Shown here: positions 51,760-56,143 of the stretch, piece by piece
Position numbering within the stretch: the stretch's first letter is position 1
How the letters are laid out: each line of letters opens with the position of its first letter
The notes under the pieces: model-generated
The model's input: only the letters and a program-made list of their open reading frames with translations
What the model was told of the DNA's origin: nothing
Databases searched by the model: none
Position numbers and translations under genes: made by a program
Virus record (IMG/VR): IMGVR_UViG_3300018428_005148
Location: 36,651 to 100,650 of that record
DNA: 64,000 nt
Origin: a virus
Strand: one strand, 5' to 3'

Positions 51760-52597
51760 ACATGTAGGTTTCTAATTGCCCTTCGCGATATAGGTCCTGG
51801 GTCACACAGTGGATGCCGTTGTCCCAAAACTCTTTGTGTCGAAAATCACACACTATAGGATTGACCTTGTGCCTTTCCAGGAATCTCATTAGTCCTGTGT
51901 CCATGCTGGTAGAGATACAGTTCGAATCATTGACCGACAGTATGTTCACATCATAGTTGCTCTCCTCGTGGTCGCCTCCCCATTCGTGCTTTAACGGCGT
52001 CACCTTGTTCTGTTGGCGAGCGTAATACACTTCCCAGCCTTTGTAAATTTCCTCCATGCTCCTAAAGTCCTCTGACGCCACTATGACACCTGGTTTGATT
52101 ATGCTGTACACGCCGTCCATGTGCCAGCCTTTCCTCGTGATGCTGACCCTTATTCCCTGGTCTGACAACCATTGGATTATTTCCTTCTCGACATCCTGTT
52201 TCACAAACCTACTCACGTCCCAATGCACGTGGTCCCCACAACGCACCATGTTTCCGGTAGATACATCATTGTCCAAATACCATTTGATGTTTTTCCTGTC
52301 TATTGAGGACAGTATGTCCTTGTATCCCGGAATGACCTTTCCAACCAGTATCTTGTCACCAATCACAGCAAAGTAGTCTCTCGGAGATATCGGTGGTCTA
52401 TCACTGCCCTCCACCACTAGTGGCCTGTGGCACACCACTCCAAAACCTTCCAGCAGTTTTATAAGACCCTGTAGGTCCTCCTCGGTTTCGTGCATGATGT
52501 CCTCTAGCCTGGGGTCATGGACGCCTGCCACATGTGGTCTACCCACGATGCAGTGCTTCAATTCATGGAATGTGGCGTGTCCCTTTATCGGTATCAT
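51758..52597 (-). CDS. Pentein-fold amidinotransferase/deiminase-like protein
   Basis: A 279-residue protein of the guanidine-modifying (pentein) superfamily, which includes glycine amidinotransferase, arginine deiminase and dimethylarginine hydrolase. Visible active-site elements are PRDYFAVIGDKI (R73-D74), GWHMDGVYSIIKPG (H159, D161) and DNGIHCVTQDL near the end, with the nucleophilic cysteine C264. This is the normal order. The N-terminal block HELKHCIVGRP resembles the first pentein strand. The substrate could be arginine or another guanidine compound; the length suits a minimal amidinotransferase. It overlaps the GIY-YIG gene by 4 nt and ends at the terminator. Confidence 0.8.
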   Translation of the reverse strand: MIPIKGHATFHELKHCIVGRPHVAGVHDPRLEDIMHETEEDLQGLIKLLEGFGVVCHRPLVVEGSDRPPISPRDYFAVIGDKILVGKVIPGYKDILSSIDRKNIKWYLDNDVSTGNMVRCGDHVHWDVSRFVKQDVEKEIIQWLSDQGIRVSITRKGWHMDGVYSIIKPGVIVASEDFRSMEEIYKGWEVYYARQQNKVTPLKHEWGGDHEESNYDVNILSVNDSNCISTSMDTGLMRFLERHKVNPIVCDFRHKEFWDNGIHCVTQDLYREGQLETYM

Positions 52598-52998
52598 TTC
52601 TTGATGATGCCCTTACCGTGTACCCTCACACGTATGTGACCGTTGTAGTATTTGTCACTCTCCAGCACTTTCCTGGCGAACTGCTCCCTGGCCTCCACGT
52701 AACTTAATTCTGCTTTGGACTTGCAGTAAAACAGTATCTCCCTGTCAAACTTGTCTTTTCCAATTTTCTGTATGTCTGCTGTGAGTTCGTCACTGCTTCC
52801 GTAGTAATCCCGCCAGTCCGAATCCACCTTGTACCTGCGCTTGTTCTTCCTGCCCTTCAGTGGTGGCCTGGATCTTTTGAACCTGGCCAACTTCTTGCCT
52901 ATGTACATCCTGCCGTTGGTTGTGTTGGTAATTTGGTAAACGAAACCCACCACGTCTTCTGGTAAGTCATCCACTGTTTTTTGCTCGTAAATCCACAT
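52594..52998 (-). CDS. GIY-YIG-like nuclease-domain protein
   Basis: A 134-residue protein starting at the ATG at 52998 (a TTG 6 nt earlier is in frame). VGFVYQITNTTNGRMYIGKK matches the two strands of the GIY-YIG module (G19-F-V-Y and M31-Y-I-G34). A basic region RRYKVDSDWRDYYGSSDEL follows, and ELSYVEAREQF may supply the glutamate. Similar proteins occur in many T4-like phages, sometimes as homing or repair-type endonucleases. It has no separate DNA-binding domain. A homing role is uncertain because it is not inside another gene or intron. The start lies beside the long non-coding stretch. Confidence 0.7.
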   Translation of the reverse strand: MWIYEQKTVDDLPEDVVGFVYQITNTTNGRMYIGKKLARFKRSRPPLKGRKNKRRYKVDSDWRDYYGSSDELTADIQKIGKDKFDREILFYCKSKAELSYVEAREQFARKVLESDKYYNGHIRVRVHGKGIIKK

Positions 52999-53496
52999 TG
53001 CCAATATTTAAAGTCAAAAAGATTGACCTTACAATTTAAAGAGTATAAACAAGTGCGATAGGCACACAAACACAATTCTTACAAATTCACACAGGCAAAC
53101 ATAGCATCCATGAAGTGAGCACGGAAATGCGGCAGTAATGCGACAGGTGAATCCGTTGATGCAAAAGGCAAAAATGATGGGGCTCTGAGAAACAGCAACC
53201 CCAGGTCTGCTATGGATTATCTTACAAAGACATGGCGGGCTCGCGTTGGATGAATAAGCGAATGGGTACAGCACAACCGCCCAGTTACGACAGCATTGTA
53301 TGATGACTGCGAACTCACCACAGGGTTCAAGTCAGTTCGGCTAGAAATAGCCGAATTGTGACTGCTCATCTACCACAGGCGACGCATAAATGCGTCATTA
53401 AGTTTTACAACTGCGTAAGTTAAAAAAACAAACGAGCGTAAGCGAAGTTTCAGATGGCGCAAGCCGGCTGTTGAATCGCCATTAAGTATTGCAACA
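52999..53496. other. About 500-nt stretch without a credible gene
   Basis: This is the only long non-coding stretch in the window. The frames on both strands are broken; an 81-codon minus frame (53029-53274) has no ribosome site and an odd composition. It contains a TTTAAATA element next to the GIY-YIG start, TATAAACA at 53044-53051 facing right, and the hairpin-rich part described as a candidate RNA. Confidence 0.7.
53044..53490 (+). ncRNA. Candidate structured non-coding RNA
   Basis: Dense inverted repeats favour a plus-strand RNA. 53330-53363 is a long hairpin (5-bp base, then 8 bp) with a GAAA tetraloop. 53311-53328 pairs GAACTC with GGGTTC around ACCACA. A GACGCA/TGCGTC hairpin lies near 53380-53396. 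53430-53450 has AAAC/GTTT closing a GC-GTAA-GC tip. 53454-53482 pairs ATGGC with GCCAT and contains GGC-GCAA-GCC. Three loops are GNRA type on this strand only. Other pairs include GGGG/CCCC near 53179-53202 and GCTATG/CATGGC near 53208-53236. TATAAACA at 53044 is one base off the late promoter. ACCACAGG occurs twice. It does not match tmRNA, RNase P or intron cores that I know. The class is unknown. Confidence 0.5.
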
Positions 53497-54264
53497 ATGC
53501 AGATGATGTTCGACCACACCTTCGGAAAACAGGAACAGCAGGACCTAGTCGTGGCCAAACCCATGTGCATATTCGAGCGTGAGGAGGAGCAGGGCGCGAT
53601 AGAGCACGGGTGGCTGGCCCTGGACGAGCCCATACACGGAAAAGAAGTTTTCTACCAGTCACGCAGTACACGTGTGAACATGAGGAAGTGGCGCCCACGT
53701 TTCCGGGAACACAAACTGAACGGTAAACAGATAGAGTACAAGATCATAGAGGCCTCCGACATGGTGAGGCTGTTGGGACTGCCCCAAATATACGAGCGAT
53801 ACATGAAGCGGAAAAAATTTGGCGCGGACTACACGCCGTTCCGGCACCACCACAAGCGGGACCGTTTCATGGTGTTCTACACAGGAACCGCTGACAACAT
53901 AGTGGCGTTCACCAAGCAGAAGTTGTACATCGCGGAGGACCCACACTACTCGCAGATCGGCGACCCCTACGTGGAGTACGCGGGCGTGGAGAGTTGCATA
54001 CACGCCAACACCGCACCCATAGGTGCGCTCACATTGGACCTCGAACTGAAGTGGGCCTCAGAGCACCAGGTGCCCTTCTACTACACGGGATCAGGATACG
54101 AACGGAGCTCGGAGTACAAGAGCAGTTGGAGGGGATTCGAGTGGTGGACGGGTGTGGAGTGGACCAACAACAGGCGTCTGTACAAGAGGCTGTGCGGGCG
54201 TGATTCTAAGTTGACTAGGTTTTCCGAGCTCGGAAACCTTTCACTGATTCCAGATAAGCGTTAG
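53497..54264 (+). CDS. Conserved hypothetical protein, possible acyltransferase-like fold
   Basis: A 255-residue protein rich in Tyr, Trp, His and Arg. Several ATGs (53497, 53503, 53506) precede MFDHTFGKQEQQ; none has a clear ribosome site, so the exact start is unsure. The C-terminal half (TLDLELKWASEHQVPFYYTG, SGYERSSEYKSSWRGFEWWT) recalls the last strands of GNAT-type transferases such as aminoacyl-tRNA-protein transferases, but no cofactor motif can be pointed out. It lies downstream of the structured non-coding stretch and its last 50 nt overlap the convergent gene. Conserved in marine T4-like phages as far as I recall. The function is unknown. Confidence 0.6.
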   Translation: MQMMFDHTFGKQEQQDLVVAKPMCIFEREEEQGAIEHGWLALDEPIHGKEVFYQSRSTRVNMRKWRPRFREHKLNGKQIEYKIIEASDMVRLLGLPQIYERYMKRKKFGADYTPFRHHHKRDRFMVFYTGTADNIVAFTKQKLYIAEDPHYSQIGDPYVEYAGVESCIHANTAPIGALTLDLELKWASEHQVPFYYTGSGYERSSEYKSSWRGFEWWTGVEWTNNRRLYKRLCGRDSKLTRFSELGNLSLIPDKR

Positions 54265-56135: not shown

Positions 56136-56143
56136 TATAAATA
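56136..56143 (+). promoter_or_regulatory. T4-type late promoter TATAAATA, rightward, tape-measure operon
   Basis: An exact TATAAATA on the plus strand 64 nt before the tape-measure ATG. It lies only 11 nt outside the gp26 start codon and faces the leftward late promoter at 56169-56176, so the two late transcripts overlap at their 5' ends. Confidence 0.75.

Follow-up and report, generated by a model that had tools for sequence, protein, structure and literature searches.

A stretch of the analysed DNA (hereafter the window: 64,000 nt, positions 36651-100650 of the 100,650-base IMG/VR virus record of a T4-like phage) contains, at 53050-53470, what is almost certainly a member of a real structured RNA family. 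Judged by sequence and covariance-model comparison the family is new, as none of the RNA families described so far could be detected as a relative. The best overall explanation, which we hold with modest confidence, is that this family member would be transcribed by the host and would carry twin docking sites for a partner acting in trans.

Covariation and secondary structure

Single-sequence folding was modestly unusual when compared with shuffled sequences (z = -2.6 for the plus strand and -1.8 for the minus strand) and, given this modest signal, the support for the RNA comes from comparison. An exact 19-mer (53265-53283) was scanned in IMG/VR and found in at least 120 stretches, while a profile seeded from four relatives (reached via the 255-aa protein encoded next to the RNA) matched 141 fetched loci, some of them clipped by contig ends, over which the alignment spans about 447 model positions. 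The type-A tests (tree null and helix-by-helix) were run on a sequence-only alignment. Under a tree-aware null, 69 dereplicated full-length marine sequences yielded 11 significant column pairs, 10 of which were Watson-Crick. Helix by helix (null of 300 shuffles), the double changes exceeded every shuffle in ten helices (P1-P6, P8-P10 and a 9-bp pseudoknot formed by the P4 loop; Table 1), and the 5' hairpin P0 failed the covariation test. The pseudoknot was 98.4% paired, with 78 double changes as opposed to at most 35 in shuffles, and its slid controls were 14-51% paired. In a core alignment of 53 sequences from all marine subtypes (fitted to the model and hence biased towards the model structure), 95.4% were paired versus 71% after shuffling, and the covariation score was 0.66 versus 0.197 ± 0.014 in shuffled alignments and 0.06-0.19 in slid controls.

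An earlier note on this DNA had proposed a large structured RNA, and covariation was set beforehand as a check that might overturn it; the compensatory changes proved strong, far above shuffles and slid controls, and bear the proposal out across relatives. G-U cells outnumber A-C cells (523 vs 30), thus placing the RNA on the plus strand. The hairpins with GAAA (53344-53347), GTAA (in P9, 53429-53451) and GCAA (53459-53462) loops are present as had been described. Among the 69 dereplicated relatives GNRA-type loops were found in P8 (99%) and P10 (72%), and the P6 loop was of the UNCG (45%) or GNRA (32%) type. P7, which would show the first copy of the twin motif in its loop, is weakly supported; in subtype A2 its stem has different letters and is still paired (by eye).

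Table 1. Features of the RNA and of its immediate surroundings, in window coordinates
Feature	Position	Strand	Remarks
SegE-like GIY-YIG gene	52594-53004	-	adjoins the RNA in most marine loci
Sigma70-like promoter (putative)	53023-53049	+	TTGACC 53023-53028, TATAAA 53044-53049; spacer 15, or 17 to TAAACA
Whole RNA	about 53050-53470	+	5' end inferred from promoter, 3' end from last conserved hairpin
P1	53104-53162	+	GCATC 53104-53108 / GATGC 53158-53162; 95.7% paired, 12 double changes; reached by 0/300 shuffles
P2	53121-53125 / 53152-53156	+	ACGGA / TCCGT, inside P1; 94.8% paired, 50 double changes; reached by 0/300 shuffles
P3 hairpin	53178-53203	+	TGGGG/CCCCA, conserved interior CTCTGAGAAACAGCAA; 98.8% paired, 41 double changes
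P4 hairpin	53204-53241	+	11 bp; 97.3% paired, 145 double changes vs at most 45 in shuffles
Pseudoknot strand 1	53218-53226	+	in P4 loop; pairs with 53297-53305
CGCGTTG element	53242-53248	+	near-universal; CGTTG in most subtypes and jumbo phages
P5 hairpin	53263-53283	+	TGGGT-ACAGCACAACC-GCCCA; 100% paired, 22 double changes; overlaps the scanned 19-mer
P6 mini-hairpin	53284-53291	+	loop UNCG or GNRA (here TACG); 100% paired, 47 double changes
Pseudoknot strand 2	53297-53305	+	pairs with 53218-53226
P7 hairpin	53311-53328	+	loop holds the first twin motif; weak: 89.7% paired, 3 double changes
Twin motif copy 1	53317-53324	+	ACCACAGG, module TGACTGCGAACTCACCACAGG; hexamer identical with copy 2
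P8 hairpin	53333-53358	+	GAAA loop 53344-53347; 99.2% paired, 51 double changes
Twin motif copy 2	53372-53379	+	ACCACAGG, module TGACTGCTCATCTACCACAGG; changes shared with copy 1
Variable hairpin	53381-53396	+	GACGCATAAATGCGTC; counterparts in relatives L004/L005, absent or replaced in L002
P9 hairpin	53429-53451	+	stem, GA, GC-GTAA-GC, GAA, stem; 96.2% paired, 25 double changes; inner loop pattern kept
P10 hairpin	53452-53469	+	AGATGGC-GCAA-GCCGGCT, last conserved element; 94.6% paired, 42 double changes
255-aa gene	53497-54264	+	family unassigned; directly 3' of the RNA in the window

Genomic context

The two genes that bracket the RNA (52594-53004 and 53497-54264) are separated by 492 bases. 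The absence of a credible gene from these roughly 500 nt, noted earlier, holds: none that was plausible was found on the plus strand of the intergenic stretch. The second result that might have overturned the proposal, a coding frame through the region, was not borne out either: no frame is kept, since 586 of the 642 indels (91%) are not multiples of three; together with minus-strand ORFs that lack family matches, these frame-breaking indels dismiss a coding region.

The home locus is ordered as gp46 nuclease gene, RNA, and then reverse-strand gp26-like gene, tape measure and portal, and adjoins the gp46/47 recombination genes and the gp26-like baseplate gene. Marine subtypes A, A2, B, C, D and E have little common sequence and occupy this same locus. 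An element linked to the homing endonuclease was considered and rejected, as SegE is usual in the marine loci, yet absent from subtypes C and E, and its place in jumbo phages is taken by EndoVII or RusA, both Holliday-junction resolvases. In many loci a TTAAATA- or TAAGTA-like word is found 5-12 bases 5' of the start codons on both flanks of the RNA (about 53003-53015 and 53483-53499 in the window), and could be either a start signal or a leaderless late promoter.

Given that in the window the RNA lies directly 5' of the 255-aa gene, it might be read as a leader of that gene or a regulator of it in cis, or else as a ribozyme or intron. However, the RNA does not have a constant 3' neighbour (some marine loci have the 255-aa family there, and elsewhere there are other genes, some on the opposite strand), the jumbo-phage copies reside at unrelated loci, and no intron or ribozyme family was matched, which makes such readings highly improbable.

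A bacterial gene was likewise discarded: the genome contigs that passed the profile were four marine MAG contigs, and the remaining matches were due to chance. All four (L212, L219, L221 and L226) contain the RNA and are probably binned phage contigs, although they are labelled Neomarinimicrobiota, Pacearchaeota, TMED41 and Pelagibacter.

Promoter

The near-consensus late promoter suggested by the earlier note is a weak reading: TATAAACA is present at 53044, where it is likelier to be the -10 of a sigma70-like arrangement. The promoter pair of the window is an imperfect match (a generic scan did not pick the exact pair), and TTGRCN followed at 14-19 bases by a TATA-like element precedes the RNA in 85 of 107 type-A loci. 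The alternatives at the -10 position are mostly TATATA or TATACA, which in about half of the loci stand in place of the TATAAATA-type element, the TTGAC -35 being common. Thus, a TATAAATA-type element (the T4 late promoter form) is not kept before the RNA. Because the nearest perfect TATAAATA sites are situated at 56136 (+) and 56176 (-), back-to-back between the gp26-like and tape measure genes, a host sigma70-type promoter appears more likely than a phage-late one. To judge from the promoter type, host RNA polymerase would in this case make the RNA from early infection onwards.

A twin module evolving in concert

The octamer ACCACAGG, reported earlier as a repeat, is indeed present at 53317 and 53372, and what had been described as a recurring word belongs to a twin module whose copies change together. 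The two versions (TGACTG-n-AACTC-ACCACA and TGACTG-n-ATCT-ACCACA) flank P8, and the first six bases of both copies were identical in 67 of 68 sequences while taking six states (shuffled mean 28, maximum 37), the lone mismatch being a one-base alignment shift. On the tree (136 branches in total) 11 of the 12 inferred hexamer changes fell on shared branches. Other subtypes have a different word that is again present twice (by eye). We looked inside the RNA for a complementary third partner of the hexamers, and no column behaves as one. Since the hexamers are identical, change together and have no internal complement, we infer a partner in trans, and one such partner, read twice by the twin hexamers, is likely.

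Concerted change could in principle also stem from homotypic RNA contacts. An RNA-only homo-oligomer of the GOLLD, ROOL or OLE kind (with loop-loop and A-minor self-contacts, and with the twin hexamers meeting between molecules) would agree with the ornate fold, the GNRA loops, the pseudoknot, the phage-encoded nature of the RNA and its multi-copy genes; nevertheless, base-paired self-contact would need a covarying complement of the hexamers within the RNA, where none was found, the GOLLD, ROOL and OLE families of Rfam were not matched, and the window has no tRNA genes, unlike the usual GOLLD/ROOL setting. Even with the GOLLD/ROOL cages as precedent (PMC12286853), we regard self-assembly as unlikely. 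A two-seed antisense RNA, whose hexamers would each base-pair with one common RNA of the host or the phage while the fold stabilises and presents these seeds, seems unlikely to the same degree: the hexamers change together yet stay identical, as if tracking one changing nucleic-acid partner, but six to eight bases are short, and the 64,000-nt window shows no clear excess of ACCACAGG (2 + 2 occurrences outside the RNA, with about 1 expected per strand).

In the explanation that we favour, of docking by a trans partner, the RNA would fold compactly, with the P4 pseudoknot and the GNRA loops keeping the particle together. The twin modules, one to each side of P8, would be single-stranded and equivalent, and a single kind of trans partner would dock at both, either as two copies or as a dimer.

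Relatives in jumbo phages

As blastn of the window and of four other subtypes against phage isolates returned no match, synteny and a covariance model were needed to reach the isolates. In portal and gp26 the nearest isolates are jumbo phages, and a long unannotated gap was found at the home locus of PA5oct, Phosso, XaC1, GAP32, CBB, Munch, SNUABM_19 and 121Q. The GAP32 gap sequence had 249 matches in 58 phage records; GAP32, CBB, Munch, SNUABM_19 and XaC1 carry about 5 copies each on one strand, Rak2-like phages have about five same-strand copies, and PA5oct has three. In GAP32 (JN882285) the copies are placed on the same strand at 35.3, 98.8, 177.4, 261.5 and 340.7 kb, in intergenic gaps with shared conserved elements, most of them with the TGGTATAAT extended -10.

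The covariance model (R2) was made from marine sequences only, and its E-values come from a shortened calibration. In GAP32, Munch, XaC1 and PA5oct, every match that it gave at E<=1 lies on a same-strand copy that had been found otherwise, which places the Rak2-like phages and XaC1 in the family. With E-values of 0.04-0.8 in GAP32, Munch and PA5oct the matches are weak singly, and the homology rests on their coincidence with independent copies. In PA5oct the home-locus gap was matched by R2 (16.5 bits, E 0.05-0.08) and the P3 motif was present in 3/3 copies, CTCTGAGAAACAGCAA being among the few blocks kept between the paralogs of this phage. Atu_ph07 had an R2 match at E = 6.5e-4 and the CGTTG/P5 sequence GGGTACAGGACAACCGCC; its 989-nt gap is located 5' of the tape measure and portal genes and the model-supported copies lie elsewhere, a second one near 383.3 kb within a 2.2-kb unannotated gap (382156-384352). 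The latter gap holds much further noncoding sequence besides this copy. Phosso, in which neither an R2 match at E<=1 nor a pattern match was found, is linked by synteny only, through a 1,014-nt unannotated home-locus gap; an annotated RNase HI gene (L230 7837-8223) adjoins it. The second and third R2 matches in G009 resemble protein-coding sequence and were rejected.

Taken alone, the 24 jumbo copies were 94.1% paired versus 79.5% when shuffled, with 301 double changes where no shuffle exceeded 103, in a structure predicted from the same alignment (to which the figures therefore lean). One PA5oct copy falls inside NC_071039.1 246116-246734 (ncRNA004, PQE65_gs004) on the same strand, a GenBank entry named 'putative lncRNA' and annotated from RNA-Seq; transcription is thus shown, by the annotation of others, for one relative.

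The five GAP32 copies are 53-84 kb apart, which is more regular than expected of points placed at random (post hoc p about 0.004), and the spacing is similar in CBB, SNUABM_19 and Munch and weaker in XaC1. This evenness (minimum-gap p about 0.001-0.006 in the GAP32-like phages, which is post hoc and represents one evolutionary event) would suit an origin transcript, whose R-loop primes replication and whose spaced jumbo copies are separate origins, as would the neighbours of the home locus (gp46/47, endonuclease VII and, in Phosso, RNase HI) and the minimum of the cumulative GC skew of the window at 53109, inside the RNA. The skew, however, follows gene direction in large records, and that of GAP32 climbs along almost the whole genome without a turn at the copies, leaving an origin by GC skew unsupported in both; moreover, a primer has no obvious need of GNRA loops or twin hexamers. 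Hence, we find an origin transcript quite improbable.

Inferred role

We reason that the several gene copies in jumbo phages point to a stoichiometric role, and thereby favour a scaffold or sequestration over a catalytic or cis-regulatory role. The docked RNA may accordingly scaffold or sequester a host or phage factor, although a decoy or scaffold specifically is a tentative assignment. Whether the family is ancestral to T4-like jumbo phages and their marine relatives, and was multiplied to several copies with two docking sites co-evolving with one trans partner (as a host-takeover or assembly RNA), is for us an evenly balanced proposition. A large structured RNA family would thereby be added in phages whose hosts are easy to grow in the laboratory (E. 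coli for 121Q and its relatives, A. tumefaciens for Atu_ph07), where it has lain in unannotated gaps; the concerted hexamers would lead straight to the partner, and jumbo phages with five copies would allow a dosage experiment.

Comparison with known RNA classes

In line with what had been noted from the sequence, Rfam assigned the RNA to no tmRNA, RNase P RNA, intron or other class. At the gathering threshold no family was found in the window, 12 subtype loci or the jumbo loci (the models of RNase P RNA and of group I and II introns included), nor was anything relevant retrieved for the RNA region of the window up to E = 10. The GOLLD, ROOL, OLE and HEARO covariance models gave no match in the same three sets, ARAGORN and the Rfam tmRNA model found no tmRNA or tRNA-like element in the window, and literature searches returned no published description of the family.

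Large phage RNAs without an assigned function are already known as a loose class, and GOLLD and ROOL genes are usually set among tRNA genes. The new RNA resembles GOLLD and ROOL in being phage-encoded, hundreds of nucleotides long, endowed with pseudoknots and of unassigned function; it differs from them in that no subtype matches Rfam, the conserved sequences are others, the window lacks tRNA genes, and jumbo phages carry multiple copies. GOLLD and ROOL RNAs assemble into cages (PMC12286853), and the authors who described an abundant noncoding transcript of about 800 nt in ICP1 liken it to them (PMC7567579); like ours, it is a large phage noncoding RNA. Another close counterpart on record is ncRNA004 of PA5oct, which has the P3 motif GATGCTCTG..GAAACAG in common with the new RNA and was recorded as a single unclassified transcript, without structure, family, paralogs or a link to marine phages. 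This orphan 'putative lncRNA' would thereby gain a family.
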